A stretch of DNA of 64,000 nt from Thozetella sp. PMI_491. Taxonomy: Eukaryota; Ascomycota; Sordariomycetes; Chaetosphaeriales; Chaetosphaeriaceae. The stretch is from the NCBI GenBank assembly GCA_021432635.1, contig MU270076.1:226756-290755 (forward strand), written 5' to 3'. The position numbers and the translations under genes were made by a program. Below are positions 4,488-59,074 of this stretch, piece after piece. The stretch's first letter is position 1. Each line of letters opens with the position of its first letter. The notes under the pieces were generated by a model, which saw nothing but the letters and a program-made list of their open reading frames with translations, was not told where the DNA came from and searched no databases.

Positions 4488-5831
4488 TTAGATCCTTCCG
4501 GCCAAATACAGTATGTTCTCTTTGATGGCATCCGTCAGCTCACCCTGACCAGTGTAGACCCGTGCCACGGTTTGGTACCACGCTTCGGGATGCGGAAGCG
4601 GGAGATAGATGACGTCGCCCTCACGCACATGGCCAGACATCATCAAGGCGGCCAGGATGGGCAGGTGAACTCTGGCGTATTTGAGGTCTGCATCGGGCAT
4701 TAACCAGTTGCACCCAGAGGATAAAGTTCAGAGCAGGGGAGGGGCAGGGCAAAGCGACTTACGGATGGGTATCGCGCTAGCGCCTCGAAGGGGTCGGTTG
4801 AGGGACGGGCTAAGCGCGGCTTTGGGAGGAACCTGGCCGGCCGTGAAGCTGGAGAAGCGCCGGTCAGAACCCAACGTCGGGCTGCAGGATTTGATTCCCC
4901 TTGAGGTTCTCCAGGAGAGCTCATCGATGCTCCTCGAGGGCCTCCGGAACTCGGCCGAGGCTGAAACCGGGGACGGCTCAGGGACCGTGGCCCGGAGCTC
5001 GTCTATGTTGAAAGTCCTCTGGAGAAGGAATGGCTTGCGCTCAAAGGCACGGGGCTTGACCCTCGCCCTGATGGTAACCTGATTCCGGTCCGAAGAGTCC
5101 TTGGGGCTCGCCGAGGGGCTGCTCGGGGTCGCGGCGCCGGCCTCTGGCGAGTCACTAGTCCTCCGCAATGACACTGCCACGACAAAACAGTCTGCATATT
5201 TGGCGTCGGCGAAGTAAATATGACCCCATGCCTCCAGTTGCTCGCGGATGGCGGAGCTACCGCGTCGGCTGGGGGAGGAAGGAGTAGGCGGCGGAAGCGA
5301 AATCGAGGGGAGCGACTGACGACGGTCAACTGAAGCCCCAACATTGCGGGCCTGCGGCCGTGGGAGACCGGAAAGAAGGATATTCCTTGTTTCGGCGACA
5401 ATGGTTTGTCGGCGCTCAGCCTGGGAAGCACCACCAGTCCCACAGGCTGGGACGAGGGGAGAGAAGCCGGCAGCATGGCTACTCATCGCGGGACTCGACG
5501 TAATGGCTAGAGTCCTCCCGGGACTGTGGCCGACTCTCTGCTCCGAGATAGGAGACAGCGACCGCTGTGTTCCGGGAGAAGCTGATGCCTTTGCTCCTTG
5601 GTCCAGACTGTCCACCATGGCTCTCTCATGCTTCCTCATAGCTGACTCCTGGGCAGAGGAAGCACGGGGGTGCAAGGGACTGGGAAGCGTCCTTGGAGAC
5701 ATGGGGGAGGGAGCAAAGCTAGGGCTTCGGAGGCGGAAAGAGGGCCGTGAAGGCGCATGGAGGTCGTGGTAGCCAGTCCATAGCGGCTGGAGGCTGGGCC
5801 GGAACCGATTCTGGGTCTCTGTAGCCTCCAT
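4488..5831 (-). CDS. Fungal protein with disordered N-terminal part and BTB-like C-terminal segment
   Basis: Two exons, 5831-4763 and 4687-4488, joined over a 75-nt intron (GTAAGT...GATGCAG) in phase 1, give about 422 residues. The first 190 residues are rich in Ser, Pro and Arg and look disordered, with several SP/TP sites. A more ordered block follows at about residues 190-280 (EAWGHIYFADAKYADCFVV..., then TIRARVKPRAFERKPFLLQR). The last 65 residues (LKYARVHLPILAALMMSGHV, then VIYLPLPHPEAWYQTVARVY, TGQGELTD, ENILYLAG) have the spacing of the second half of a BTB/POZ fold: a strand, a helix ending in xVYTG, then a helix with LYLA. The protein stops right after that motif. I do not recognise a named family. 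The BTB assignment is inference from pattern. The splice join is well supported by frame and consensus. Confidence 0.65.
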
Positions 5832-8248
5832 TTGGAGATTTTGAAGGAAGCGCGTAGTAGTAATACAATTACACGATAGTTAGAAGAACATGTGCTAGCA
5901 AAATAGCAGGCGTATGGCACAAGGGGGCAGGGAAGTTGGTTCGTTGAGATAGGCTGGTATTGGCGGCATCGCGCCGACAATGAATACCATCGCCCTCTTT
6001 TGTATGCTCTTCTTCTTCCTCCAGAGCCAACCTCGCCCCCCTTTCCCTGAAGGACGGTCAGCATGGGCTTCAAAGAAGAGGAGGGGTTTCCGGCAATAGT
6101 GCCAAAGCGACCGGGCGCGGGCGAGCGAGAGATTGAGTCAAGCTCAAGCCCCTGACCTCAAAGCATTCCTCGCATTTGCAGCTCGGCGGAGAACAAAGAA
6201 GTTCGCGTGCGATCTGTCTTACTAGGCTACAGTTTGCCGAATGCCCGTTGCCGTGGGCAGCTGCGAGACAAAGGGCGTGGCGTCCCACACAGTCTGAGGC
6301 AAGGACAGCCCCAGGGATCTACAGACCCCTCGTGCCCATGGAGCGAGCGGTATCGCATCCCACAGCAGCACCAGCCCGCGTAGGCGAACAATCTGTTCCG
6401 TCCCGACGCCAGTCATATGTCATAATCATAACAAGGCCCAAGCGAGCCACTTGGACAGAAGCAAGCAGGGAGGGATCAAAGGAGACGAGGGAGTCCGACT
6501 CATTCGCGGCAGACATACGCACCGGGTACACGGGCAGTGCGTCCGGACGTTACGCTCATGGCCGCGAGGCCTAGAACCTCCGGTCCTCTCTCTGGAGAGT
6601 ATATTGAAAACGTGGGTTCCACCCAAGAGAACATGCTTCTGGGTGCCGAATGCGTCAGACACGGAGATGTCTTGTTCCACCTGGTAGATGCGGAGGTGGC
6701 AACAACGGCGATTCTCTGGAAAACAGATCACCACTTTTCTCCAGTTTCGGCTGACGGAGACAGACTAGCCCAGTGCCGTTCCGTCTTCAAATTTGACCCG
6801 TCTGTGCCCCAGGGGAAGGGAGGGGGGGCGAGAGGATGTCGGTCCGGGTCGGGGGGTCCCGATATTTCTCCGGGACGCAATTACTCGAGGCGGCCAGGCC
6901 GTCGGAGAGGAATTTGTACTTCGTGTTCTGCGGGTGTCTAGGGAGAGACACTCCTACTTAGGATCATAGAAAACGTCAGTACAGTTTCCAGGACCCCGAT
7001 GCAGATACAATGCTCCCATGTTCAAGGGCAAGGCTTGCCCTACAGCGACTGTGTAGCTCTTGATAGGGCAATGCAGCCCGAGTCGCTGAATTGCAGCCTG
7101 TGAACTGCATCTCAAACGACTACTCATAGTAACACAGATTTTCTTGGGCAGCCAAGGACCTCCACAAGACCGGCAAGATAATCATACATGAACCTCCGCC
7201 CCTTTTCTTCCCCAGGTATACCAAGGTCATGGCGCAGCCAGTCAAGCGATGCCTCACAGCCATACTAGAGGAGCAACTTATAACTTGGCTAATAGTCTTT
7301 TATTACCTAGCAGCAAAACACGCTGGTGCCGCAAATTTACGGTCAACCACAGGTCAGGAGGCAATCGTTCGTGCATTTATCTAAACTGCGATGTCTTAAT
7401 GTCTTTTCCTACAAGCCGAGCTGTATGTCCGCAGCTGCCGGGTAGAACGCAGACTACATGGTACTAGAAACCAAGTATCTCGATGTGAGGAGTAGGGTAT
7501 GCTTCTACGACCCAAGGGCATAAACCGAGCTGTTCCGGCTGCCCTTCTGGTGGTACTGATACGGCTGGATTTAAGACAACTATGGCGGAATCCCTTGGTC
7601 TACCAAAAGGAGGACTGTGGTACAGCTAGTTTATTGTTGCTCACCATTACGAAACCGAGGCACCTCCCTTCTCGTAAAAGAACCCTGGTTTACACCGGAG
7701 TTTCTGCATTTCCATAAATTAACCAAACTACCACTAGGCCCTAGCCGTATTGTATCCTTAAGCGTGGCTATCGGTCATGGCTGATGGACTGTGCGTGGTG
7801 TTGCCGTCCGAGGTGCTTCAAAGGGAGAGACGACGTGTAGGCTCGGCTCAAATTCGGGGCGTTATTTTTTTGTGGGGGGGGGGTGTCCGTGCACGCTCAC
7901 CTCGCCCAGCTGTCCGTGTCGGTCGCGACCATCACAACGGTTTACCCCTGAGGCAGACGATGGAAGCAAGAAAGAAGGGCAGAAAACAAAAAATAAAAAA
8001 CACGGGTTATCCGCGGAGCACGACCGGAACCAGTGCAATGTGCAGCTGACACGTACACATCATTTCCTCGATCTGACAGGTGACCCTCACAACTCGCCTC
8101 GCCCTACACTGCAGGCGGGTCCCATACCTCGCGAATTGGGCGAAACGACAGCTCTTTCCGGTTTCTAACAGAAGCAAAAGGAAGAAAGAACGCGCCGCCG
8201 TCCGACCCACGCCGGGACCCGACCCTTCGCCCAAGATATTCCGCAAAC
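5832..8248. other. Intergenic between divergent genes
   Basis: This region separates the starts of the BTB-like gene (-) and GWT1 (+), so it should contain both promoters. Part of it (about 7100-7760) is noticeably more A+T-rich than its surroundings. A G run lies at about 7872-7886. Small open frames here have no recognisable content. Confidence 0.5.
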
Positions 8249-9833
8249 ATGGCGGCCGCTGCCAACGCGACTCAGAGCTACAAGCAGCTGAAGGAGGACT
8301 TTGTGTCCAACCTGACGGGCGGAACGGTGGCAGAGATCGCGAGCGTTACCGCAGTCGCGCCGGTGCGTGCAACCCGGGGGATGGGTTTGGAATCCATGCT
8401 ATGTGACGAGTCCGCGCTGACACCTCATTTTCTTTCCCTCCCCGCAGGCCGCCGCTCTTCTCTGGTCTGTCCTCCAGGCCCGCCAGTCCTTCTTCAGGCC
8501 CTACACACCCCTGGCCTATGCCGTCGACCTCTTGCTCCATGTTGGAGGTTTCCTCCTGGCCACCACCCTCTATGCCAGTACACCGCTCCTCCTCAACGGG
8601 CTGCTGCTCACCGCAGCCCTGTTCGTCTACGCTCTCCCGCCCAACACGGCGTCCCGGAGGAAGAAGCCGAAGCTCCCGCCCGCTGCCCAGTCCAAGGCCG
8701 CGTCCGGGCCGCTCGGCGCTCTCTCGACCAAACCCTTCCTCACCACCTACCGCGCATATATGATGATCACCACCTGCATGTGCATCCTGGCCGTCGACTT
8801 CCGCCTGTTTCCTCGGCGGCTTGCGAAGGCCGAGACCTGGGGCACCTCCCTGATGGACATTGGAGTAGGCTCGTTTGTCTTCGCCGCCGGCGTGGTCGGC
8901 GCACGGTCGGTGCTGAAAGAGCGAGCCGGCGGCCGGGCAATTCCAGTGGTTAGGCGTGTTATCTCCTCCTTCCGCCACTCGATACCGCTTCTCGTCCTCG
9001 GCTTCATACGCCTGCTCAGCGTCAAGGGCTTGGAGTATGCCGAGCACATCACCGAGTACGGCGTCCACTGGAACTTCTTTTTTACCCTGGGCCTCCTGCC
9101 TCCCTTCGTCGCGCTCTTCCGCTCGGCGCTCTGGTTGATTCCTTCCCACGCGGGCCTGGCCATCATCATCGGCGTGGTCTACCAGGTGTTGCTGGAGACT
9201 ACCGCGCTCAAGGCCTACATCCTGGCCGCCCCGCGCACCGACCTTATCTCGATGAACCGAGAAGGCATCTTCAGCTTCCTCGGGTACCTGGCTATCTTTT
9301 TAGCCGGCCAAGACACGGGCATGTTTGTACTACCGCGGAGGGTCAACCCCAGGAGTAACTCGAGTGATGGCTCGCAGAGGACGACTCTGCTCATGACCAT
9401 CGCTGTTTGGTCTTTGTCTTGGATGGCCCTCTACTTCCTCGCCACCGACTACACCTACGGCGCCGGCCTAACCGTGTCCCGGCGGATGGCGAATCTTCCC
9501 TACATTCTCTTTGTCGCAGCTTTCAACAGTGCCCAGATCTTTATGTTCTGCCTGGTGGACACCGTCTTCTTCCCGGCCTTCTACAACGCCCACGACACTA
9601 GGACAGAGAAGGAGGCGTATGAGACTGCCACTAGTCGCGTCCTACACGCATACAACCGGAATGGACTGGCCATCTTCCTGGCGGCGAACTTGCTCACCGG
9701 CTTGGTGAACTTGACAGTCCCGACTTTGGACATTGGCCAGGTTGGGACGATAGCGATACTAGCGGGCTACGCCACTGTTGTAACGACTTTGGCAGTCGTC
9801 CTCGACATGTATGATATATCCATTAAGCTGTAG
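8249..9833 (+). CDS. GWT1: GPI-anchor inositol acyltransferase (Gwt1/PIG-W family)
   Basis: Gwt1 adds a fatty acyl chain to the inositol of GlcN-PI in the ER membrane, an early step of GPI-anchor synthesis. Exon 1 is 8249-8362 (38 residues). An 85-nt intron 8363-8447 (GTGCGT...CCGCAG) leads to exon 2, 8448-9833, for a total of 499 residues, close to the roughly 490 of the yeast protein. The N terminus [20 protein letters not shown] is the family signature; the join gives [20 protein letters not shown]. Many hydrophobic segments follow, from [15 protein letters not shown] through [20 protein letters not shown] to [20 protein letters not shown], as expected of a polytopic ER protein. The start ATG has a good context (CAAACATGGCG). 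The large antisense open frames over this gene are composition shadows. Identification is by recalled family sequence and is secure. Confidence 0.93.
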
Positions 9834-12800: not shown

Positions 12801-14482
12801 CACAGATGCCCGTGGAAGTCCTTCGCCTTCCGTGCGAGCCGCGCATGTGTAACACGATTCAATACATTGACGCTCACTCTGGGAATCGGCTGGCTTCCCG
12901 AGGCCCAACGCGGGAGCTTTTCCTTCCCTCCCCATTCTGTTCCCTTCCCCTCCAACCGAGCCTCTGGGGCTCTCTTGGCCCTCCTTTAAGCCTTCGTTTT
13001 TTTTAGAGAGAGAAAAAAAAAAAAGAGCCCGCGCTCGCGAGAGGGAGTGGGGAGGCTGAAAAAGAAAGAAAGGGTGCTCTCGGCTAAGCGGGTGGTATAT
13101 GCGGCATACTGTACCTGGCACGAACTCGTAATAAAGAGGGCCTTGCGATGTAGCGTAGCACAGCGCCGGGCACTCGCCCGCTGGCACCGGACACGACGTG
13201 CCGCCCCTTTGTGCGCCAGTGTGCCAGGCTGAGACCTTTGCGAGGGGGCTACTCGGTAACTAGCTCGGGGCTGCTTGGCTGTGTAGATTGGGAAGGCCCC
13301 GGCAAAGGGCAGGAGTGGAAGAGGGGAGGGTGCGCGTCTGTCGCGGCCCGGCGTGGATGGCTTTGAGCGCATTGCGACCTGCATCCCGGAGTAGATGAGG
13401 AAAACAAAACAAGAGAAGGGATCATTCTTGATATATCGCGTCGGGGGCGCAATGGGGGCCAGGCGCCGTCGCCGCATCCAAGGCCGGAGAGGCAGCAAGG
13501 CGCTGGGTTTGGCCGGCCTAGGCTGGCGGCGGGTTCAAAGCACCAGCATAAATTGGGGCACGAGTCCAGAGTACGGGCCTTGGCGAGGAAATTAAACGAT
13601 GCCCTGGATTCATTTCGCACGCTGCAAGGTACATGCATACAGCGGGGAAATTGGCGTAGCGGCCAGGTACCAATGCCCCTGGGGGGTAAGAGGGACCGGC
13701 CGCGCTAGAGCCCAATTCCACTGTCCCGCAGCCCGCATTGAAGCTGAGGGCCGCCTGGGCAAGCAGCGCAACCTCACCCCGTCTGGTCAATCTCCCATAT
13801 CCGCATCTCGCATCCTTTCATTTTCTCCCACCCCCCGAACCTCTCAAGAACCATCGCGCGCCCGCCCGACCTGCCCTCGACGCAGCCTTCCGGAGCATAC
13901 CCTCTGAGAGGACTGCAGGCCAATTCTGCGGCCCTCATCCGTCCGCCATTGCACGTCGACGATCCCGCCCGAACTAACGTCCACGCTTTTGCGAGTCGCG
14001 ACCCCCGAGTAAACAAGCGCCAAAAAAACTTGGCCGTCCGCCCGCCCCCCCAAACAACCCCAGTCGCGTCCCGTCGGCCACACCCCCATCGCATCGCTGG
14101 CACCTGCAGGGCCAAACGCAGCCTCCACTCCCGAGGCGAAATCGATTGCCGCGCAGAACGAGGCCCAGGGCCACGATGAGAAGCTGAATTGGACGCCTGC
14201 CACAAAAAAAGAATTTCTCAACTTTCGGCTCGCTGGCCCATCCCTCCCGCTACACGGCCGCCTCGCTGCAACTCGACTGCATTGCGAAGAGCTGCTGCTT
14301 GAAACCTGGCGGCCTTTTTCGTCATCCTAATTCGTCCAAATATTTCCGGCACCTGTCCGTCCCCTCTACGACTCCCAGGCCGCCAGGAGGCTTTGCAAAC
14401 AGAGCGTTCCCGCCCCGACCGCCAGCCAGGGTCGGTCGCTCTCTTCCTCGTCGATACCATTTCTACGCGCCTGGCGTAGAAG
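9834..14482. other. Gene-poor interval and leader of the kinase gene
   Basis: No supported gene lies in this 4.6-kb stretch. It holds an imperfect palindrome at 9976-9996, an A-rich tract (about 13010-13024) next to a GAGAGA stretch, and a TACTGTACC motif at 13107. From about 13800 the sequence becomes pyrimidine-rich and looks like promoter and long 5' leader of the downstream kinase. A tiny upstream open frame (ATG AGA AGC TGA) lies at 14176. Confidence 0.5.
9976..9996. repeat. Imperfect palindrome 3' of GWT1
   Basis: Eight-base arms ACACCATT and AATGGTGT flank a TCCGG centre, about 145 bp after the GWT1 stop codon. It could be a protein-binding site or part of the 3' UTR; no role is shown. 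Confidence 0.5.
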
Positions 14483-17400
14483 ATGTCCGCTGCCCTTCAA
14501 CCTGTACCCCATCAGCCGAGTTCCGTAGCAGCTCTCAACACGTCTCCCTTGGTGACCGCCTCTCCCGCCAGCCGGCACCATCCCTCGCCCACCCGAGAGA
14601 CCTATAATGCAAACACGCACCCGTCTGGAGCCTCGTCGTCGTCATCATCCCGACGGCCATCCCGAAGACCCAGCGCGAACGACTCTCCATCCGGGCACAA
14701 CTCCCCGATGAGCTCCCGCGCTGCCGTCGCCTGTCCCGTCCCCGTGACGGCTCCCCCCACCGATTACTATCCCTCCCCGTCGTCCGATAGGAGAAAAAAC
14801 ATGCCTACCGCCGTCCCCCCCCGCACGTCCTCAACCCAGCACGCCTCTGGCGCCGCCGGATCGAGCTCACGTCGCGCTCACGGGGGCGAACGCGCCGCAA
14901 ATTCGCCGCGACGCGCCCATGCCGACCCCAACGGGAGCACCGTGGACCCTGAAGAGGCTTCTGCCCAGCCTTCCAGAAGCCGTCGGGCCCAGCAGATTGC
15001 TCAGGAACCGCCCCAGCGAACGAGCAGCACCCGCGAGGGCCGGACAGGCGCCTCCGCAGCCGCGCTCCCCATCCGGACCCAACAGCCCCCCAGCAGCCAA
15101 GCCTCGCCCAAGGGCCCGTCAAGAGAAGCTAGCGAAATCCTGAACAGCATACTGGTATCCCAGGATGAGGTCGACATAGCCAGAGAGCAACAACGGATCG
15201 CTATGTCACAGCCGCAGCATCCCGAGAGCCTCCAGGACGACGACGCCACCCCGCCACCGATTGGCGGCGCCCCTCAGGACAATGGAGAGGAGAGCAGCCG
15301 CCGAGGCGGACGAAGCCGACACGATCACTCCAAGCGAGAGAAGCACACCAAGTTCGGCGAGTACATCCTGGGCAGCACGATCGGAGAGGGAGAATTCGGG
15401 AAAGTCAAGCTCGGATGGAAGCAGGAAGGAGGTGTCCAGGTTCGTGATTCCCGAGATCGACCGCTCAAGCCCCACGTGAATACTGACCCTGCCCTCCTGT
15501 AGGTCGCTATCAAACTCATCAAGAAGGACCAGCTGGGCAGCAACCCCAACCGGATGGCGAAGATCCGGCGGGAAGTCGCCATTCTCCAGCAGCTGAGCCA
15601 CCCGAATATTGTCAAACTGCACAAGATGGAGGAGTCGGAGCGGCATTTCGGTATCGTGCTAGAGTACGCATCAGGCGGCGAGCTGTTCGACTACATCCTC
15701 AACCACCGGTACTTGAAGGACAATGCTGCTCGGCGTTTGTTTGCCCAGCTGGTATCCGGAGTTGGGTATCTCCACAAGAAAGGCATCGTACACCGAGATC
15801 TGAAGCTTGAGAATCTGCTGCTCGACCGCAACCGCAACATCATCATCACCGACTTTGGATTCGCAAACACGTTCGATCCTGTCGAGGAACTGACCGAGGA
15901 GGAAGAGCTAAACCTCACAGACCGTGAGTATGTCAAGCGGTTAGGGCTCGACAAGGTCAAGCCCAACGGCTCCCGCAAGGGAGATTTGATGCAGACGAGT
16001 TGTGGTAGCCCCTGCTATGCGGCCCCGGAGCTGGTTGTTAGTGACTCCCTGTACACGGGCCGCAAGGTTGATGTTTGGAGCTGCGGTGTGATTCTCGTAA
16101 GTCTCGTTTTGCTTGCCTCCTTTGATAGCCTCGAGGCTATATGCGTGTACTGACCCGACTAGTACGCCATGCTTGCTGGTTATTTGCCGTTCGATGACGA
16201 TCCTGCGAACCCCGAAGGCGATAACATCAACCTCTTGTACAAGTACATTGTCAACACCCCCTTGACCTTCCCCGAATACGTCACTCCTCACGCCCGAGAC
16301 CTTCTCCGCCGGATCCTAGTTCCCAACCCACGCAAACGTGCAGATTTGTTCGAGGTCGCCCGGCACAGCTGGCTCAGCGAGTGGGCACACGTAGTTGAGC
16401 TTGTCACCTCGAGCACTACCACCTCTACCGAGATCCAAAACACGACCGTACCGGCCGAGGACGAAGCTGAGCCGGCCGGCATTGTCCGGAGCTCGTCCGT
16501 CCGGGAGTCCTCCAAAAAGACCCCCGTGTCCCCGCCCATCGGTGGCCTAGCCACCAAGCAGGGCACGATCGACCCCGACGCCGAGGCGGTGGCGAGGCAG
16601 CAGCGCGAGAACAAGCGCCGGACGGTGCAGGTCGAATACGTGGCACCGAGCACGGCGACCCAACGTGGCGAGGCTGCGGGCGGACAGTCCGGCAGCAAGA
16701 CGCGTGCTCGCTCCGGCAGCCAAGGACCTGTCGAAGTGGCCCAGATAAGCCCGACCTCACCCAAGGAGAAACCTCTGCCGAGGGATCCCCCTGGTTCCAA
16801 GGATGGATACGGCCAGCCAATCTCGTCGCGCAAGCCCCCGAGTGCTCATCGGAACCAGCCAATGCAGAGCAGGCCCAACCGAGGCGAAGCACGCGCCATC
16901 TCAGACACTGCTTTCATGGCCGTCACCGGCTCCGCCGCACGTCCCGCGACAGGCGGCTCCATGCAATCTACGGGCTCCAGGGGTGTGGGAGCAACAGGCG
17001 CGCGAGCTTCGTACGGCCAACCTGTACCCCCTGAACTTGCCGATACTAACGCGCATGGAAGGATCCAACAACCAGCCAAGGGAAGTGGGAAGAACTACTC
17101 AGGCGTTCCCCAGGAGCAGCAGAACCCCGAATATGGTCGGCCGAGCATCAGCGTGCCGCCCAAGTTCGCCCAGGTTGCAGGCTTCCCAGGAGACGGTGAG
17201 AGCGCGGCCGAAGTAAAGGGCCACCGGCGGTCTAGCACTATGGGCGAGATAAGCGGCAAGATCTTTGGCCGGACTGGGTCGCTGTTTGGGGGTAGGAACC
17301 GCAAGCGATCGGAGCAACAGGCGCCGGGCGAGAAAACGAAGAAGTATCCACCAGTCAGCATGAACGCATCCATGTTGACCAACAACGACGAACCGAGACC

Positions 17401-18127
17401 ATCCATGGATTCGAAGCGCTCGCGGCGTTCCTTCTCGGTTGGGCTCGGTAAGAAGCGGTCTGGCAGTATGACAGGCTCGCAGAATTCCCAGGAGAAGCAA
17501 AACCGCCGGTTCTCTTTCATCCCCGGCTCCTTCTCGCTCAAGGCTATCGGGATTGGGAAGGACTACGGGACGCCTCAAGACTCGCAGCAAGATCTTCCTA
17601 TCCAGGAGCCCCCTGCCGTGGATCAATACGGACGGTACGTTGACCAAGATGTCGGCCGAGACCATGTGGATGCCTCCACCCTCGACGGCATGTACGCCCA
17701 GCTCCAGGACCCTCGTCAGCAGCAACAACAGGGTGCGTACCACGCCCAACAGCAGCATCAGTCGCAACAGGCGGAGCCCAGCCAGTGGGGAGGCCGGCCC
17801 GCTGCGATCCCTAACTACATGCCCGGCGCTGTCCTGAATACGGGATCGGAATCTTCGATCGACCAGACCCGGCGCCCGCCCGGCTCAGCACCGCACCAGC
17901 CGACATACCCCGCCCAGCATGATGGTGCGTTTGATCAGCGCCGGGTCGCGAGCAGCAATGTACGAGGCAACAACCGCGGCGTCCTGACCAAGAACAAGCG
18001 ATTCGTCGATGCCTGGGACACGGACGACTACTCCCGCCCGCACGATCACTCTGGCAGCAGTGGTCCGGCAAGAAAGGTGATGGATTTCTTCCGCAGGAGA
18101 GGCAAAGCCAGGGGAGGGAACAGCTGA
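14483..18127 (+). CDS. Kin4/Ppk9-like serine/threonine protein kinase
   Basis: Three exons (14483-15439, 15503-16096, 16163-18127) with 63- and 66-nt introns, all in phase 0, give 1171 residues. Residues 1-285 are low-complexity, rich in Ser, Pro, Arg and Ala. The kinase domain starts near 291 ([20 protein letters not shown]) with catalytic Lys323 in [12 protein letters not shown] at 416-423, DFGFAN from Asp436, then [13 protein letters not shown] and [20 protein letters not shown]. This matches the yeast Kin4/Frk1 and fission-yeast Ppk9 group of the CAMK/Snf1-like kinases; yeast Kin4 acts in the spindle position checkpoint. The segment between DFG and APE is about 50 residues, longer than in yeast, and carries an acidic [10 protein letters not shown] insert. 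The tail of about 550 residues is disordered, with a Gln-rich patch and basic C terminus. Activation-loop phosphorylation at [10 protein letters not shown] is likely by homology. Kinase identity is secure; the subfamily is probable. Confidence 0.88.
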
Positions 18128-21593: not shown

Positions 21594-21630
<37 letters not shown>

Positions 21631-21746
21631 NNNNNNNNNNNNNNNNNNNNNNNNNNNNNNNNNNNNNNNNNNNNNNNNNNNNNNNNNNNNNNNNNNNNNN
21701 NNNNNNNNNNNNNNNNNNNNNNNNNNNNNCCCCCCCCCCCCCCCCC
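21594..21746. repeat. Long poly-C tract interrupted by an assembly gap
   Basis: There are 37 C residues at 21594-21630, then N, then 17 C at 21730-21746. The tract lies 155-307 bp upstream of the calcium exchanger start codon, probably in its promoter or leader. The opposite strand is G-rich and could form quadruplexes. The true length is unknown. Confidence 0.9.
21631..21729. other. Assembly gap (99 N)
   Basis: A run of N with poly-C on both sides shows that assembly stalled within the homopolymer. The real size may differ from 99. Confidence 0.97.
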
Positions 21747-21900: not shown

Positions 21901-24804
21901 ATGACGAAAACTTCACCTACTACCTCGTATACAGATCGCATCCGCTCCTGGGTAAACACCAAAGCGCATGGCGGCACTCATCGCTCGTCGAGACGACCCG
22001 ACTCCAACCCGGACCCCAATATCCTTCCCCTGAGCAACTCGCCGACTACGTCATCTGGTCGATCCAACGCCCTCCCTGTTGAGGACCCTTCCATTACTAG
22101 CACCAACCATGCAACTCACAGCAGCACCGGCGGCCCTCGCCGCCAGGCATCCGCGCATACCGGATCAGACGACAATATGGGGGCTCGCAGTAGCCCGCCG
22201 CCCCCTCTATCACCGCAAGTTGCGGAGCCGCGGCCTGTCGTAGAACCTGGGGGTGTGGACGAGAAGCAACCCCAGAAACCCCCGAGAAATGTTCTCGCTG
22301 GAGCCTACGACACCGGCAAGAAGGTCCTCCTGCACAGCAAGCTCAACTTGCTGCTCGTGTTCGTCCCCGTCGGCATCGCCGTCGCACAGGTGTCCGGCCT
22401 TAACCCGGGCATCATCTTTGCCATGAATGCCATTGCCATCATCCCCCTCGCAGGCCTCTTGAGCCATGCCACCGAGTCCGTGGCTTGTAAACTGGGCGAT
22501 TCCCTCGGCGCCCTGCTGAACGTTACGTTTGGCAACGCAGTAGAGTTGATCATCTTGTAAGCCCGCGTGCCCGTCGGCCCGCACCTACGCGGCCGACCCC
22601 TATGCCCAATGAGGAAGAATAAAAAAAAGAGGCGTCCTCTCAAGCGGCTCATGGCTAACCTGCGGCAGCATGTATGTCCACCTCGATAAAGTGATCATTG
22701 ATCAAGACAAGAACGAGCGAGAAGCCTCGAAAAGGCATTATCAAATCAATCGCGTCCCATATCATGCGCTTCCAGCTTGCCTTCCCATCAGACCACGCGC
22801 GTCCCTCGTGTGACTTGTTCAGAATGTCCCCTAGCTCACTAACCTGTTTTCCTCTAACCCAACAGCATTGCCCTAGTCAAGGTATGTTCGGCCACATATG
22901 CCACCGGCGTCCTTCGTCTGAGCCCCCTAGCTGCGAAATGCGGCCTGCTAACACGGGCACAGGGCGAAATCCGTATTGTTCAGGCTTCTCTTCTTGGCTC
23001 GATCCTCGCCAACTTGCTGCTCATCTTGGGCATGTCGTTCCTGCTTGGAGGACTGCGCTTCCGCGAACAGGTATGGCGCTTTCCATCGCACCCACGGCCC
23101 AACACATGCTAAACTGGATTAGATCTACAATAGCACGGTTACCCAGATGAGCGCCTGTCTCCTCAGTTTGAGCGTCATCAGCCTCGTTCTACCCGTATGT
23201 CTGGCACGCCGCGCGGAAATCCCTGAAGTATGCTAACGGCCATCAGACCGCCTTCCATGCCTCATTCAACGACCCCAACCTGGCTGATGCCCGGTCTCTC
23301 ATGATCAGCCGCGGGACTAGCGTGGTATGTCGTGTTGGCTACGCTCTGCTACTTACATTTCGCTCATTATTTACAGATTCTGCTACTCGTTTACATCATC
23401 TACCTGCTTTTCCAGCTGAAATCGCATGCGTATATGTATGAGTCGACGCCGCAACACATCATCGATGAGGAAGCAACCCCCGGTCCCGTTGCCAACTGGC
23501 TGGACTCGTCCAGCGACAGCAGTTCCTCTTCCGACTCGGACTCGGACGACTCGGACCATTCTCGGGACACCATGGGAAAGCGCGTGAAGCGGCGACTGAG
23601 GAAAGCCGGTCGACGCCGCAAGTCGAGCGTCATCTCCATGGACAATAGCGAAACCATCGCTCCCACTCGCACCCCTTCTTTCGGTACTGCCGACATTAGC
23701 CCGGGCGCTGATAAAGGCTCGGATGAGTCCTCATCTCGCCCGCGCTTGTTGTTCCCCAAGATACCTTCTCAGGACTCCAACGAGGAGGCGGTCGAGGACG
23801 ATACCAACGGTAGCAAGCGCCGCCGTCGCCACTCTTCCAAGAAGAGCAAGAAGCACAAGAAGCGATCGCACCACCATGCCTCCCAGGAATTCTTGGAAGA
23901 GACCATTCAGGAGACCCCCGAGGCCCAGGCAAGTCACGAATTCGCGCTCGGAGCCCCCCGCCGTGTCGACTTCGCTATTGCGGATGCTACTCACCTCGAC
24001 GACTTCACCGCCGACTCGGCCGCCCGGCGGCCTTTCACTGGACTCCGCAACATGTCGTTCCGGCCGGTAGCTAAGAGCCTCGCCCCGACGGTCTTCGTCC
24101 AGCCTCCGGACACGGTCGTCGCTCCCATACCTGCCGGGCCGGTGCCTCGGGTCCGATACGGCATCCGCAGGACCAACTCGCTCCCGGACCGACTCAACCA
24201 GATGTACCGTGCCCCTGGCGCCATGATGCCGTCGCAAATTCCGCTGGCTGCCATCGCAAGTGGGCAGCTCGCAAAGGAAGAGAAATCGGAGGAGCGCGAT
24301 GATCATTTAACCAAAACCTCGGCCATCATCCTTCTCCTAGTCTCCACCGCGCTAGTTGCTGTTTGTGCCGAGTTCATGGTCGACTCCATCCAGGGCCTCG
24401 TCAAGACGTCAACCGTCGGCGAGATTTTTATCGGTCTCATCATCCTTCCCATCGTTGGCAATGCTGCGGAACATGTCACGGCCATCACGGTTGCCATGAA
24501 GAACAAGATGGACCTAGCAATCGGCGTCGCAGTCGGCAGCTCCATCCAGATTGCTCTTTTCATCACCCCCCTTGTGGTCATCCTGGGCTGGATCATGGAC
24601 CGCGCCATGACGCTGCACTTCACCCTATTTGAGACTGTGTGTCTGTTTGTGTCAACCTTCATCGTGAACTTCCTGGTTCTGGATGGCCGCAGCAACTACC
24701 TCGAAGGTGCGCTCCTCTGCGCTACCTATGTCATCATCAGCGTCGTTGCCTTCTTCTACCCCAGTGCCGACGAGGCCAGCCAGTGGGGCTCCCCCGGGAC
24801 TTGA
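21901..24804 (+). CDS. VCX1: Vacuolar Ca2+/H+ exchanger (CAX family)
   Basis: The CAX exchanger moves cytosolic Ca2+ into the vacuole in exchange for H+. Exons: 21901-22556, a 3-nt microexon 22669-22671, 22866-22881, 22963-23070, 23123-23194, 23247-23324, 23377-24804; total 786 residues. The first signature repeat is GNAVELI (residues 211-217), the second GNAAEHVTAIT (from 672), with the paired acidic residues E215 and E676. LLGSILANLLLILGM and AVGSSIQIALFITPLVVIL are membrane helices of the two halves. A poorly conserved N-terminal part (about 130 residues) and a central loop of roughly 240 residues make it much longer than the 411-residue yeast Vcx1. The loop holds Ser/Asp runs and Arg/Lys/His-rich clusters. 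The first ATG after the poly-C gap was chosen as start. Without the microexon the protein still reads in frame but lacks one Ile of the conserved FIIALVK stretch. Family identity is secure. Confidence 0.92.
22669..22671 (+). other. Predicted 3-nt microexon (CAT) of the Ca2+/H+ exchanger gene
   Basis: It is flanked by two complete introns. The first, 22557-22668, runs GTAAGC to CTAAC and GGCAG. The second, 22672-22865, runs GTATGT to CTAAC and AACAG. Joining TT, CAT and CATTGCC reads Phe-Ile-Ile-Ala and restores exact alignment length with yeast Vcx1 (SIIALKKGQ). Skipping it leaves one 309-nt intron and a one-residue deletion in a membrane helix. Confidence 0.75.
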
Positions 24805-29125: not shown

Positions 29126-32100
29126 TTAGGCACTCTTCCCATCGCCGACAACACTCTCACAACGGCCGCAGAGTTCGTCCTCAACCGGAGCAACATACCG
29201 CCAGCACCTAGGACACTTGTGTTCGCGCGGTGGAATCACCGTCACATTGCACTTCGATCCCGCCAACTCAAACCCTTGCGAGTAACGCCAGCTGGCGTCG
29301 GCAGGGACTTCGGTGTTCAGATCGACGGACGACACCACAAATATGGCCTCAAGCTCGTCCTTGTACTTTTCGAGAGTACTCAGTGCCGGGCCTTCTGGGA
29401 CCTCGAGAACCACCGAGCCACCTAGGGAGGAGCCCAGAAGCTTCTCGGCGCGAGCCAGCTCCAGGATTGCCTTGATAGACCCATGCGCCTCCATGAGTAT
29501 GGGGATGGCGCCACGGAGCTCCGACTCGTCGTTGACGAGGCGGCCGGGGTCCATAAGCGGGGCGGTATAGAGCTGCTGCAGAGGGTGCAGCACGGATCGG
29601 TCGTCCTTGAGCCACTCCGGGGCGTGCTCCCAGGCCTCTTCGACCAGGAGCGGCGTGACTGGTGCTAGCATTCTCAGGAAGCCGAGGAAGATAGGCTCGA
29701 GGACGCCACCGCCGTCCGCACAGTAGAGCCTGTCCTTCAGGGCCTCGAGGTAGAAAGCAGAGAGGTCGCCGGCAAGCCAGCGGTTCAAGCTACTATATAC
29801 CCTATTGAACTCGTGGTTGTTATAATGCTTGTGGACTTCCTCCATGACGTCCTTGAGTTGGATGAGCGCAATGCGGTCCAGCACTGTGAGCGGCGCCTTC
29901 CTGGCCGATTGCTGCATGGAGCCGGTCAACATCTTGACGGTGGTGCGATACTTGATCAGAGACTGATGGACCGACTTGAGGACCGTCTCGCTGAGGATCA
30001 CGTCCCGGGTGTAGTCGCTGCTGGCAGCCCAGAGACGGAGAGCATCCGGGCCGAGCGCGTCATTGACAGGCTTCTTGGGACCTTTCTTCCTAGTCTTCAG
30101 GGGAGGGAGTAGCGAGCCATCCATAACCTGATCGGCCGAGATGGTGTTCCCCAGCGACTTTGACATTTTTTTTCCATGCTCATCAAGCGTGAAACCGTGC
30201 GTTATCAGCTCTTTATATGGGGCCAGCCCAATCCCTGTCATACCAGAGGCCGCGCTCTCGGGGGCCATTGCCGCAACTCGAGTCAGGAGGCTGGACTGGA
30301 ACCAACCTCGGTGCTGGTCAGACCCTTCAAGGTACACATCTGCCTGCCTGTGGCTGTCCATCTGGGTCCAGCTGCTGCCGCTGTCAAACCAGACATCCAT
30401 AGTGTCGGTTCCTCGCCTCCACGCGCCGCCCTTGCCGTCTTGCCTCAGAGACGGAGGAACCCAGGCCATATCGTCCGCAGGGTCGGACCACCAGGCATCT
30501 ATCCCTCTCTCCTGGATGACGGAGATGATGTGTTCGACCGACTCCTCGGTGAGCACCGCCTCGTCGGAGCGATATAGCGCCGGTATAGGCACGCCCCAGG
30601 CCCGCTGGCGCGAGATGCACCACTCGCTCCTCCCTCTGACGAAGGACCCCAGTCTGTTCTTGCCGGTCTCTGGCGTATATGCCACTTCATCGAGGGCCGC
30701 TAGGGCAAGGTCTTTGATGGAAGCCACGTCGGCAAACCACTGAGCGGTAGCCCTGATGATGACTGGCTGCTTTGTCCTCCAGTCATACGGATACTTGTGC
30801 GTGTACTTGTGAACACGGATTATATGGTCTCGGAGGTGATGCAGCACAGCCGAATTTCCTGCGCCCTGAACGGAAAGGCCTTTGAGAACGTCCGGGTTGG
30901 GGGGGCATGCATCAGCTGTAAACAGTCCCTCCCCGTCTACAGGGGCAGCCACTTCTCCGACTCCCAGGGATTGGCACAGCAGGTAGTCGTCAAACCCGTG
31001 GCCGGGGGCGCCATGCACGAGACCGCTCCCGGAGTCTGCTGTGACGAACGAGCCGTGGACAAAGGGCTGAGGCGGCACGAGCGTTCCGCTCACCACATTG
31101 ACGTATCGAAGATTGGTGAGATCACTTCCTTTGACGGTATTGATGATCTCGACTGGGTCTTCGGACACAAGGACAACCTCCCGGTAACGCGGCAGGCACG
31201 CTTCCGCCAGGATGATGGCATCTTTTCCGTGGCGCACGATGCAGTAGTCTAGGTCGTCATGCACGGCTATGATCTGATTCGCCGGCAGCGTCCACGGCGT
31301 GGTCGTCCAGATAAGGGCGTAAAGGTTTCCTTCCACCTCAGCTCCCCCCAAGACCTTGTTGTACGCCTCGGCCTGCGGGCCAGCGGAGGACTCGCCGTCT
31401 TTCCCTGCAACGAGGAACCGAACGTACGCCGCCGTGGACACGTGGGCCTCGTTGTATTCGAGCTCGGCCTCGGCCAGCGCGGTTCGTGACGACGGTGACC
31501 AGTATACGGGCTTGAATTTGCGGTAGATGAGCCCTCGCCGCACCATCTGCTGGAACAGGCGCAGCTGCTTGATCTCGTAGTCGCTGTCCATGGTTGTCCA
31601 GCGCCGGTCCCACTCGGCCATGACGCCGTACGTCCGGAAGCTCGCCATCTGCTCGCGGACTGTCTTTGTAGCGAGGGCGCGTGCTGCCTTGCGTATCTCG
31701 GCAGAGGGCATGGTCTTGCCCGCAGAGGCGTTCACAGCCTTGAGCTCGATCGGGAGCCCATGACAGTCCCATCCGGGAACGTAGGACACCCGGTGGCCTG
31801 AAACCGATATATTGGTTAGCTGTTTGGCTTATTGAAAGGGAGGTCAAGTCAATTGGAGGACGAAGGAAGGGTGGCGGCGCACCTTGCTGAACCTTGACGC
31901 GGAGGATCATGTCCTTGAGGATCTTGTTGAGGGCATGGCCGGCATGCAGACTGCCATTGGCGTAGGGGGGGCCGTCGTGGAGCACAAAGGTATTATCGGC
32001 AGGCCGGTTGGCGGCCTGCCACTTGTAGAGATCATCGGCGCATCGCTGGATGTATTGGTCACGGTTCTGGAGGATAGGTCGTGGACTGGAGGCCAAAAGC

Positions 32101-46813: not shown

Positions 46814-48106
46814 ATGGTCTCTCGACTCGAGCTCCACGTCTGGGGTCCGGCCTTTGGCCTACCGTCCATTGACGTCGAGTCGCTTGCTGCCATCGCCTAC
46901 CTGAAGCAGAGCCTCCAGCCAGAGGCCTACCGGCTGGTTCAGAACAGCCCATCCGGCGTCCCGACCCGTAGGCTCGCTTCTCCCTCCCTCCCCTCTCAGA
47001 CAGAGTTAATATTCCCCTGGAACCGCTAACACTGTCTCCTAGACTCACTCCCTGCGCTCCACGACCCTTCGACGAATGCATGGTGCTCTGGATTCAACGC
47101 GATTACATCCTATCTCAGGACACATTGCACTCCTTCCTCCCAGGATCCTGATGCCAGTCTATCCCCTCGCCAGCGTGCAGACGCCGTGGCCTACGCTACC
47201 TACCTCAGCACGCATGCGGCCCCGCTCGTTGCGCTCTCCCTGTACGTCTCCTCTGCGAACTGGGTCGGCGCAACCCGGCCGGCATACAGCAAGATCCTGC
47301 CTTTCCCCCTGACATGGACCGAGCCGCTCGCGGTCCGGACCTCCATGGATCGACGGGCGGAGCACCTAGGCATGTCAAGCCTTGACGCGGACGCCGAGAC
47401 AGAGAAAGCGACCGAGACCGAAAAGGCTGCCGCTGCCGCGGGTTGGGTGCAGGTGCCAAAGAGCCTACGGCTTCCGAAGAAGGGTGTCACCGATTCCATG
47501 ACGCCGGAACAGAAGGCACGCATTCGTCTCGACGGCCTAGCCGCAGAGGTGCTTGATGTGCTGGCCGACTGGGGATTACACGAGGCCTCGCCAGAAGAGC
47601 GTGGGAAGCAGAGTGCTGTCCAGTGCCTGGAGTTTGCCTATCTTGCGCTCATGCTGGTCCCGGACGTGCCGCGGCCGTGGCTGCGTGAGAATATGCGGGC
47701 GAAGTACCCAGCTTTATGTGGCTTCGTAGAGCAGTTCCAGACGGACCACTTTACCCTTTCGCCATGGACCGAGCAAGACCGGATTGGCCCATCGGCGCTC
47801 AATCTTACCACAAGGTTCACAGCCGAGACGCTGCATGGCATTCCCGGGCTCGGCGAGGAACTGAAGCGGTGGTGGCTGCAACCTCGGGACGGGAAGCGTG
47901 ACCTGCTTCTTGGCGTTGGCACAGGCTTACTCGTCTTGGCCGCTGGGACTGGAGCATTCTTTTGGCGCAGCCTACCTCCATATGGGTCACCGCTGTATCG
48001 ATGGGAGAAGCTCAAGACGGGACTGGGCGCGTTTGGTGCCGCGGGAGCTATGTTCATGTTACCTAGTGTAATGGGAGCTGAAGCGAGCTTGGACGTTGCA
48101 GAATAG
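46814..48106 (+). CDS. SAM37: Mitochondrial outer-membrane SAM complex subunit Sam37 (metaxin family)
   Basis: Sam37 is part of the sorting and assembly machinery that inserts beta-barrel proteins into the mitochondrial outer membrane. Exon 1 46814-46967 and exon 2 47043-48106, joined in phase 1 over a 75-nt intron (GTAGGC, GCTAAC, CTCCTAG), encode 405 residues. The N terminus MVSRLELHVWGPAFGLPSID, then SLAAIAYLKQSL, is the Tom37/metaxin thioredoxin-like start. The second half (residues about 200-330) is helical and GST-C-like. A single hydrophobic segment near the C terminus (LLLGVGTGLLVLAAGTGAFF) fits membrane anchoring. The length fits the fungal family. It converges with PIG-U, with 380 bp between stops. 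Identification is good. Confidence 0.88.
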
Positions 48107-49865: not shown

Positions 49866-50206
49866 TGCTCAAAGCGCCATCACAATATCGCGAAAGGAAG
49901 GGGATGCAGAGGGGCCGGGAAAGGGGCTTACCACCAATTCGTGTTCAGAAATTTGGCCAGAGCAGCAGCTTCCCTCGGAAGGGACCAGCTGGCACTCAGC
50001 TGGGCGGAGCTGGGGGCAGTGGGCCGTGCAGGCAGTGCAGGCAGGTGGAGCGGGAAGCTTATCTTATCGGATGAGCGGTGACGGCTGTCAATAAAAAAGT
50101 TCGGGGTCCACTGGCCGAAAAAAAAAGTTGAGCTCAATTGAGTGCCCCGCCGTTTGTCCCTTCGCCTCGCAAAAAACCAAAGTGGCAGCGACGAATCGAC
50201 GACGCC
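49866..50206. promoter_or_regulatory. Compact divergent promoter region, PIG-U / NOP7
   Basis: Only 341 bp separate the two start codons, so transcription of both must start within or near this interval. It has repeated GGGCAGTG/GTGCAGGCAG-like strings (50010-50045) and an A run before the NOP7 start (50119-50126). No known factor site is assigned. Confidence 0.6.
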
Positions 50207-52246
50207 ATGGGCAAGCTCAAGAAGAAGGGCCAGGCCGGCCAGGCCAAGAATTTCATCACTCGAAACCAGGCGATCAAGAAACTTCAGATCAGCCTCCCCG
50301 ACTTCCGGAAGCTCTGCATCTACCGGGCCATCTACCCTCGCGAGCCTGGCAACAGGAGGAAGGCCGCCAAGTCGTCCACCGCCTCGACCACCTTCTACTA
50401 CACTAAGGACATCCAGTACCTGCTCCACGAGCCATTGCTCCAAAAGTTTCGCGAACAAAAGGCGCTCGAGAAGAAGATCTCGAAGGCATTGGGCCGAGGC
50501 GACGTCTCGGACGCCAAGCGACTCGAGCGCAATGCCGCCCGCCCAGACAAGACCGGCAAGCCCCGCTACACGCTCAACCACGTTGTGCGCGAGCGCTACC
50601 CGACCTTCACCGATGCGCTGAGGGACCTGGATGATTGCTTGTCCATGCTGTTCCTGTTTGCAAACCTGCCCTCGACCTCCGCCGTCCCTGCCAAGATGAT
50701 TGCCCGCTGCGAAAAGCTCTGCTGGGAGTTCCAGCACTATCTCATCGTCTCGCACAGCCTCCGCAAGTCGTTTCTATCCATCAAGGGCATATACTACCAG
50801 GCGAACATTCAGGGAGAGGATGTCCTATGGCTGGTGCCGTACAAGTTTAACCAGCGGGTGGTAGGCGATGTTGACTTCCGGATCATGCAGAGCTTTGTCG
50901 AGTTTTACATGACGCTGCTGGGCTTCGTCAACTACAGGTTGTACACAGCTGTCGGCCTCAAGTATCCACCCAAGTTTGACACCACCAAGGACGACCAAGC
51001 AGCTGAGCTCGGTGCCTTCATCCTGGAGGGTGCCAACCTGATAACCCAGGACGAGCCGACCAAGGCCATCACCAACGGGGAAACCGAGCATGGGCCAGAT
51101 CCCAAAGTGCAAGCCGAGGTCGACAAGGTAGTCAAGCAGCTGAAGGGCGCAGAACTCAACGGCACGCAGCCGGCCGAGAACGGGGCCGCCGAGGACGACA
51201 TTCCGGCCAACGCCATTGACAAGTTTGAGCCTGCAGTTGAAGGCGGCGACGTGCTACCGCAACCCAGTGACAGCACGAGCGACCCGGCAGCCCTTTTCGC
51301 CAACTACACTTTCTATCTCTCCCGTGAAGCGCCACGTCAGCCCCTAGAGTTTCTCCTCCGCTCTTTTGGCTGCAAGAGGATCGGCTGGGATGAGATACAC
51401 GGCGAGGGGGCATTTACGACAAACGAGTTAGATCCTACCATCACGCATCAGATCATTGACAGGCCTGTTGTGCAGGCCGCGGTGAACTCCGGCGGTGACG
51501 GCGCGGACAACCAGACCTCGCAGAAGCTTGGGCCAAACCAGCGTGTGCCTGGCCGGATATACATCCAGCCGCAGTGGGTTTGGGACTGCGTGAATGACGA
51601 AGAGATCAAGCGACCCGACCTCTATGCCCCCGGCGCAGAGCTGCCGCCTCACCTTAGTCCGTTTGTCCAGAGTGTCCAGGGCCGGTACGATCCCAGACGT
51701 CCTCTCGAGGAGCAGGAGACGGAAGGCGAGGCACTCGAGGCTCAATTCGACGCCGATGAGGATGGGGAAGCGGCCGGTGAGGACGAGGAAACAGAAGAAG
51801 TCGCTGAAGAGGAAGAAGAGGACGAGGATGTCGATGAGAACGGTATGCATGTGGCATCGTCCGACGATGACGGCGCTGGGGACGACGAGGGCTCTGTCGA
51901 CTCCTTTGGCGGATTCTCGGACAATGAGGCCCGAGAAGACTCTGAGGAGGAGGAAGCCTCGGTGCGCCAGCGAGAGCTGGAAGCCGAGGTCTCAGGCAAA
52001 TCCGTCAAGCGGGACCAGGTGGATTCTAAGACCAAGGCGAAGCTAGAAGCAAGGAAAGCTCTGCACAGGAAAGCACGCGAGGAGGCCGAAGAGCTTGAGA
52101 GGAGAAAGGGTATGCTGAGCAAGAAGAAGAGAAAGCAGTTTGAACAGATGGAGTACAGCAACAACAAGAAGAGCGCCGAGGATATGAAGCTCCGGGAGAA
52201 GCGCAGGAAGATCGAAAAGGAGCTCGCAAAAAAGGTGAAGGCTTAG
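50207..52246 (+). CDS. NOP7: Pescadillo homolog, ribosome biogenesis protein Nop7
   Basis: Nop7 is the scaffold of the Nop7-Erb1-Ytm1 (PeBoW) complex needed for 27S pre-rRNA processing and 60S subunit assembly in the nucleolus. It is a single exon of 679 residues. The start ATG gives [20 protein letters not shown], the pescadillo N terminus; the frame is open 23 codons further upstream without an ATG and was not used. Residues 1-290 form the Pescadillo_N domain ([40 protein letters not shown]). A BRCT domain covers about 360-485 ([20 protein letters not shown] to [20 protein letters not shown]). Then come long acidic runs (about 500-600) and a basic coiled C terminus (KARE...KKKRKQF...KKVKA). 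It lies in tandem before another rRNA-synthesis gene. Identification is secure. Confidence 0.95.
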
Positions 52247-52664
52247 ACAGCTAGTTTCCGGCGCCCGGGTTTTGTAGCCAATATATTTAGTGTAGTTTGG
52301 AATACCAACTTTACACCTTAACGCCGCTGTTTGCTTGAACACCACTTGTTGTAGTCATCAAGATACATGCAGTTATCAGTTCTGCATATCTTCCACTCGA
52401 CCGCTACTAGTACTGTACTTTCATATTGCCGCAGCCATGTACAGTGGCTTGTTATTTTGGGTGTTTCATCCTCCGCCTGAAAGTATTTATTGGGTGCTGT
52501 GGGGGGTAGCTAACTCGGCACCGAACCCCCAAACTTGGGCACAATCTCACTAGCGAAATCTCTGCAACAGGACCTCCGCACCATCACTTCATCTATCGCA
52601 GCTCGTGTTCTCTGGTGCCCAAACGATAAGCTTCGCTGCCTTTCAAACTAGCCGCGAAGATGGA
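52247..52664. other. Intergenic between tandem genes
   Basis: It holds the NOP7 3' UTR and the promoter/leader of the Rrn9-domain gene. A TACTGTACT string, one base off the recurring motif, is at about 52411. No coding frame is supported. Confidence 0.5.
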
Positions 52665-58400: not shown

Positions 58401-59074
58401 GGAGGACCCGGGGAATGATGCCGGCCGCATCGGACAGAAGCCCCAAGGTGTCGTTCATGTCGCCCGACATTGTGTATGTCTTTCCGGTGCCAGTTTGGCC
58501 GTACGCAAAAATGGTACAGTTGTATCCAGCAAGCATCTGTCAACTCGGTTAGCTGTTGACTCCAGCCGCAGCGAATAGGGTTTGCCCGTACATCGTCCAG
58601 AATGGGCTTGACCACATCGTCAAAGATCATGCTTTGGTCCGCAGCTGGGGAGAAGACCCGATCAAAATTGTACGACTTATTGGTGAGCGCGGTAGGGCCC
58701 ATCGAGAGAACAACCTGGTTGCCCTTGACTCCTTCTGCTGACACAACCACGGCGCTGTTCTCGCGTACCTCCCGCTCGTTCCGCCCCCGGCACCGTACGA
58801 CAACGTTGATGTTGGTAGACTCGCCATCGTCGGCATCATATTCACGCTCCTTGCGCTTGGTGCCGGCTGTAGCGGCAGTGTTGATCGAGGTGACCGAGTT
58901 TGCTGGTGAGATCGCGCCGCTCCGGTCTCCGCGCGCCGTCACCGCGAGCTGGCGGTTATGTACTTGTCTTGTCGCGGTCGAGGTTACTCTGGACGGAGGG
59001 CGCATGCTAGGCCGCCCAGTTGTCCCTGTGCGGGTAGCGGTAGGAGCCATTGCGGCTGTTCTTCTGCGCTCCAT
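55453..59074 (-). CDS. bimC: Kinesin-5 mitotic motor (BimC/Cut7/Eg5 family)
   Basis: Kinesin-5 is a tetrameric plus-end motor that crosslinks and slides spindle microtubules. Exons 59074-58592, 58536-56380 and 56313-55453 give 1166 residues, near the 1184 of Aspergillus BimC. The first 55-nt intron joins PILDD|MLAGYNCTIFAYGQTGTGKT, the P-loop being at 174-181. SSRSHTVFTI and NLVDLAGSE are switch I and II; LTRLLQDSLGGRTKTCIIAT is the microtubule-binding region. NVVVRCRGRNEREV opens the motor, after a basic N-terminal tail. A long coiled-coil stalk follows. Thr1015 in PTGETPEKMAYQYP lies in the BimC box, the Cdk1 site that controls spindle loading. The second intron (56314-56379, 66 nt, GTAAGA...CTGACG...CTGCAG) keeps frame if retained. 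It diverges from the PHAF1 gene, 852 bp apart. Identification is secure. Confidence 0.94.

Follow-up and report, generated by a model that had tools for sequence, protein, structure and literature searches.

The question raised by this locus is how a conserved transporter gene can carry a 309-nucleotide gap between two coding exons in compatible phase, when joining these exons directly leaves the encoded signature helix one residue short. The gene lies on the plus strand of a 64,000-nucleotide stretch of contig MU270076.1 from Thozetella sp. PMI_491 (the whole stretch analysed here, hereafter the window). Its reading frames predict a complete Vcx1/CAX-type Ca2+/H+ exchanger of seven coding exons, the first of which (21901-22556) ends at the beginning of the gap, while another starts at 22866 on its far side. 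We argue that the trinucleotide CAT at 22669-22671, inside this gap, is very probably a genuine three-nucleotide coding exon of this fungal vacuolar-type exchanger, and one that is probably included constitutively. The argument is built on protein length, on splice signals and on an enumeration of the alternatives.

The identity of the gene product follows from several comparisons. With the microexon the predicted protein is 786 residues long and without it 785, and the whole protein scores 370.3 bits against the TIGR00378 (cax) profile, well above its cut-off of 211.15, which places it in the CAX family. Two repeats with GNAxE motifs are a hallmark of CAX/Vcx1 exchangers; both are present here (GNAVE and GNAAEH), each aligned to PDB entry 4k1c, a "Vacuolar calcium ion transporter" that we take to be yeast Vcx1. 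The match to 4k1c (E = 2.2e-102) extends over two stretches, residues 123-338 and 622-775.

Exon 1, for which the ATG at 21901 was chosen as start codon by reading frame and which resembles 4k1c, ends in ...GNAVELII followed by TT, which begins a Phe codon. When 22556 is joined directly to 22866, the frame is kept but one Ile is lost, giving NAVELIIF-IALVKG and hence FIALVK; when CAT is included, its C completes the Phe codon and its AT begins an Ile codon (TTC ATC ATT), giving NAVELIIF-IIALVKG and thus FIIALVK, precisely as the original prediction had claimed. The longer form aligns without gaps from GNAVE to IVQAS both with 4k1c and with 9vsa ("Vacuolar cation/proton exchanger 1", presumably a plant CAX). 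The accompanying claim of exact length agreement with Vcx1 thus stands for this segment and fails for the whole proteins, whose lengths differ. To place these observations in a wider set, we used a scan of prokaryotic genomes (prokaryotic by title) that returned at least 589 relatives in 595 matched stretches, the best 80 of which were compared; a fungal contaminant contig could lie among the relatives beyond these. All 80 alignments cover the place of the microexon. In 76 of them the length from GNAxE to VVKAS/IVQAS agrees to the residue with the CAT model, and the other four (L048, L057 and L075, titled Euryarchaeota, and L080, a Poseidonia and thus presumably an archaeon) carry 9-14 extra residues, which by eye sit after the GNAxExIIxxxA core. 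A shorter form occurs in none of these 80 prokaryotic relatives and in neither of the two solved eukaryotic exchangers, 4k1c and 9vsa. The peptide pattern used for the scan enters the helix only as far as NAVELIIFI, which the short form matches as well, and so did not select against it. Two scans of viral contigs yielded no relative.

Profile scores point in the same direction. With and without CAT, respectively, the N-terminal half of the protein scores 187.3 and 181.8 bits against NCBIfam cax, 181.9 and 175.4 against caca2, and 77.1 and 71.2 against Pfam Na_Ca_ex; in four profiles the gain from inclusion is 5.5-6.5 bits. On a custom profile made from the 80 loci and the two PDB sequences, with the window protein excluded, the best of the 20 possible residues at this position is Ile. 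What the profiles tell us is that one residue is missing and that a hydrophobic one is preferred; they do not by themselves name CAT. Judged by these comparisons of sequence, the residue that CAT would supply is needed to complete the conserved exchanger sequence.

The splice signals, in turn, do name CAT. The gap divides into an intron of 112 nucleotides (22557-22668), with the donor GTAAGC, the putative branch site CTAAC at 22655-22659 and the acceptor end GGCAG, and, after CAT, a second intron of 194 nucleotides (22672-22865), with the donor GTATGT, CTAAC at 22839-22843 and again at 22854-22858, and the acceptor end AACAG. CAT is thus flanked by two complete U2-type introns (GTAAGC/CTAAC/CAG and GTATGT/CTAAC/CAG), and every one of the exon ends and motifs given in the original prediction, upstream and downstream, was found at exactly the nucleotide it had named. 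The donor GTATGT is also found in three of the four introns that the gene has besides these two.

The gap was then scanned with consensus forms for donor, branch site and acceptor. These forms agree with the published donor consensus GURWGY (PMC7138796). The gap contains exactly two GTRNGY donors (at 22557 and 22672) and three CTRAY motifs, all of them CTAAC (22655, 22839 and 22854). Three AG dinucleotides have a CTRAY upstream (22668, 22691 and 22865), and the one at 22691 reads AAG. When exons of 1-60 nucleotides were enumerated that have a YAG acceptor, a CTRAY within 45 nucleotides and a GTRNGY donor, CAT was the only candidate in the gap. Such an arrangement seldom arises by chance. We shuffled the interior of the gap 20,000 times, preserving its dinucleotide composition and the outer sites and requiring introns of at least 45 nucleotides. 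Of these shuffles, 38 contained a three-nucleotide candidate when CTRAY and GTRNGY were demanded, 6 when CTRAY was narrowed to CTAAC, and none when the donor had to be GTATGT; accepting any GT as donor raised the numbers to 617 (CTRAY) and 118 (CTAAC). An in-phase candidate measuring anywhere from 3 to 30 nucleotides was seen in 298. Across the whole window, both strands included, CAT is the only three-nucleotide candidate with CTAAC; pairing CTRAY with GTRNGY yields two candidates of this size, and pairing CTRAY with any GT yields twelve.

An open enumeration of splice models leads to the same exon. Eleven of the 731 one-intron models (GT-AG, GC-AG or AT-AC) and 244 of the 3652 two-intron GT-AG models were open, and the CAT model came first among these 255, at 208.5 bits. 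Direct joining ranked third at 202.7 bits and is the best one-intron model; of the 15 top models listed, three have one intron, and none of these restores the length.

Several observations nevertheless weigh against the CAT exon. The base preceding the second donor is T, as is the last base of exon 1, and G precedes the donor in about 80% of Aspergillus fumigatus donors, a figure quoted in PMC12940212. Intron 2 is long at 194 nucleotides, considering that introns above 160 nucleotides are termed rare in Aspergillus nidulans (PMC6616335). The protein evidence is also less exacting than it may appear. The query of the alignments already contained the extra residue, and any of the 20 residues placed at this position lifts the custom-profile score from 202.9 to 206.6-208.6 bits; since every residue does so, these scores reveal the lack of one residue but do not identify CAT as its source. 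When residues were deleted singly at 150 positions of the domain, the cost ranged from -2.6 to 11.8 bits, with a median of 6.9, so that the loss of 5.7 bits at the place of the microexon is ordinary and not decisive alone. A different three-nucleotide exon, AAT at 22823-22825, takes second place among the models with 208.3 bits. Finally, the basis is the DNA of one genome, and the relatives compared are prokaryotic apart from two eukaryotic PDB chains.

Several other explanations were weighed. The first would dispense with a microexon altogether and remove 22557-22865 as a single intron, leaving the helix one residue shorter. Its canonical GT-AG ends, its preservation of the frame and its third rank among the models speak for it. 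We nonetheless consider it very unlikely, given that no relative in either set compared above has the shorter helix, that 309 nucleotides would far exceed the gene's other four introns (81, 52, 52 and 52 nucleotides), and that such an intron would have to hold by chance an acceptor and a donor exactly three nucleotides apart, complete with CTRAY and GTRNGY, as occurred in 38 of the 20,000 shuffles. If AAT served as the exon instead, the junction would read TTA ATC ATT and encode L-I-I, with a profile score merely 0.2 bits below that of the CAT model. However, its donor would be GTCCCC, its downstream intron would measure only 40 nucleotides, and the 45 nucleotides ending at its acceptor contain no CTRAY, all of which reduces its chances to almost nothing. 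It is the splice signals, and not the protein score, that single out CAT over AAT. Equally negligible is the prospect that the gap is a stwintron, i.e. nested introns, from which the 309 nucleotides would be removed in two steps without leaving an exon. Pezizomycotina are known to have stwintrons (PMC5639578, PMC6616335), and the gap does have two donors and two acceptors in series; yet GTATGT lies whole, three bases past the first acceptor, such that stepwise removal would leave CAT in the mRNA. We also considered the [D] stwintron, in which an external donor is interrupted by the internal intron and no exon is left, and rejected it, the second donor being intact.

A further explanation accepts the exon as real but has it alternatively spliced, so that skipping would act as an in-frame off-switch or yield an altered transporter. 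It is a special form of the CAT-exon reading, with odds that overlap those of the latter, and we regard it as unlikely. It draws on the fact that skipping CAT keeps the frame and on fungal precedents for the alternative use of tiny exons, such as Xlr2 of Trichoderma (PMC11121469) and the 15-nucleotide exon of rtnA in Aspergillus niger (PMC6616335). Against it, the upstream intron has its full set of signals, and the pairing of nearest sites would favour inclusion; moreover, we found no signal of regulation in the sequence, and the RNA is predicted to fold no more stably than its shuffles (z-score -0.19, equalled or bettered by 44 of 100 shuffles), nor is there any inverted repeat of at least 10 nucleotides (7-nucleotide seed) in 22540-22980. 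In its more specific version, which we rate a shade less probable again, regulated skipping would shorten the GNAVE helix by exactly one residue. If true, vacuolar Ca2+/H+ exchange could be turned down post-transcriptionally without a premature stop codon, in contrast to retention of intron 1, which brings an immediate in-frame stop (TTG TAA), or of intron 2, which contains an in-frame stop. Such a regulated skip is conceivable, with no support in the present sequence analysis.

How could a three-nucleotide exon with constitutive inclusion be recognized at all? The footprints of U1 and U2AF do not allow an acceptor and a donor three bases apart to be occupied together. This spacing therefore implies that the two introns would be removed sequentially, in either order. 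The likely mechanism, as we see it, is sequential splicing by intron definition with inclusion by default. Each intron would be recognized alone, through its donor together with the nearest branch site and acceptor, and the pairing of 22557 with 22668 and of 22672 with 22865 would include CAT by default. Whichever intron is removed first would fuse CAT either to exon 1 or to the 16-nucleotide exon 3, after which the remaining site would lie beside a longer exon. Since the introns would be recognized separately, the exon would need no internal enhancer. Its inclusion would restore one Ile and the register of the conserved helix following GNAVE, and skipping may be expected to impair the function of the transporter.

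Recognition through the introns, one of the two routes offered by the original prediction, fits what PMC6616335 describes for ascomycetes, where nearly all introns are small and splice sites pair across the intron; the same source gives, as a reading rule for A. nidulans genes, that the nearest bona fide sites are paired. The other route, strict recursive splicing, proved unnecessary. GTATGT stands whole downstream of CAT and is not made by the first splicing step. A recursive splice site obtains its second donor only through the first step (AG|GT); here the order is AG-CAT-GTATGT, with the donor existing beforehand, and we rejected the locus as a recursive site in this strict sense.

The CAT exon has a neighbour that is itself a microexon. 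Exon 3 (22866-22881, 16 nucleotides) starts with C and completes I-I-A-L-V-K, so that the F-IIALVK segment is spread over three exons, two consecutive ones of which are microexons of 3 and 16 nucleotides. CAT moreover duplicates the first three bases of exon 3 (22866-22868), both copies following CAG. Junctions with and without the exon thus differ in whether CAT stands twice or once, which could cause short reads to be placed wrongly. Intron 3 (22882-22962, 81 nucleotides; GTATGT...CTAAC...ACAG) is in frame and free of stop codons, and its retention would add 27 residues. These would follow immediately on the conserved helix, close to where the four exceptional relatives carry their 9-14 extra residues.

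Exon 4 (22963-23070) starts GEIRIVQASLLGS... and is followed in the exon-intron model by exon 5 (23123-23194) and exon 6 (23247-23324). The last three introns, within 23071-23376, are each exactly 52 nucleotides long, and those flanking the microexon measure 112 and 194. Exon 7 (23377-24804), similar to 4k1c, runs to the stop codon and encodes the second exchanger repeat, preceded by a long charged linker. The linker between the exchanger halves (23458-24306) is Ser/Asp-rich and then Lys/Arg/His-rich, and lies outside the 4k1c alignment.

Just upstream of the gene, at 21594-21746, is a poly-C tract with a run of 99 N that looks like a homopolymer assembly gap. A Pfam scan of ten long open reading frames in the window assigned a family to seven: GWT1 (8421-9833), a class I tRNA synthetase (29126-31828), Tom37 (47030-48106), Pescadillo (50132-52246), RRN9 (52554-54971), a kinesin (55453-58539) and PHAF1 (60024-61586). 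No Pfam family was found for the remaining three (4728-5879, 14480-15502 and 16163-18127).

If correct, the exon extends the very short list of such fungal exons by a clear three-nucleotide case from a gene for ion transport. It suggests that exons which annotation may skip can be revealed by a conserved helix whose length is fixed, a gene model without CAT describing a transporter whose signature helix lacks one residue, and the spacing of three bases between acceptor and donor would make the locus a compact natural test case for sequential intron-defined splicing. Narrow searches with partial coverage of the literature, annotated fungal genomes lying outside their reach, returned no report of this three-nucleotide exon in the exchanger gene: the peptide was not found in published main texts, and no paper on fungal VCX1 exchangers with introns came up. 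Microexon terms had no match in PMC9024468, and PMC8624252 yielded just a reference.

Among systems already described, a close parallel is the one-nucleotide exon with RNA read support in CYP621A of Fusarium (Nelson and Syed 2026, PMC12940212), where only a single transcript model among those listed was correct at the site of the exon. Like CAT, it is an ultra-small exon of a filamentous ascomycete within a conserved motif of fixed length, it was revealed by the sequence lost on direct joining, and it is flanked by AG and GT within an apparent intron that exceeds the usual length. Unlike CAT, which has three nucleotides and is neutral to the frame, it has one and restores the frame; it is also backed by 20 orthologues and RNA reads, whereas the CAT exon is known from DNA alone, in one genome. 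In exact size CAT is matched by two three-nucleotide exons of lipS in Dactylellina haptotyla, which PMC5639578 mentions in one sentence and infers from gene structure. That gene too belongs to Pezizomycotina, but it is a different gene in another class, Orbiliomycetes. The 20-nucleotide microexon of Xlr2 in Trichoderma (PMC11121469) likewise lies in a conserved domain in a filamentous ascomycete and is absent from the deposited gene model; it differs from CAT in its length and its glucose-dependent use, shown by RNA sequencing. Cytochrome P450 genes of Phanerochaete chrysosporium also contain very small coding exons, of 2-10 codons with a shortest of 6 base pairs (PMC1184071), in this case in a basidiomycete.

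Outside the fungi, coding exons of three nucleotides have been reported for troponin T and homothorax of Drosophila and for rodent NCAM (PMC7392893, PMC8042270). They equal CAT in size but are animal exons and alternatively spliced, and the homothorax exon, unlike CAT, corresponds to the first three nucleotides of a 48-nucleotide exon. Plants have one-nucleotide exons in APC11 and VPS55 (PMC8831610), which share with CAT their ultra-small size and their location in genes for conserved proteins and which are missing from reference annotations; in contrast to CAT, their length is not a multiple of three, and they are conserved across land plants and supported by RNA. Exons of one and of three nucleotides are thus already in print for filamentous ascomycetes, and since one-nucleotide exons are documented, the CAT exon leaves the view of what the spliceosome is capable of unchanged.
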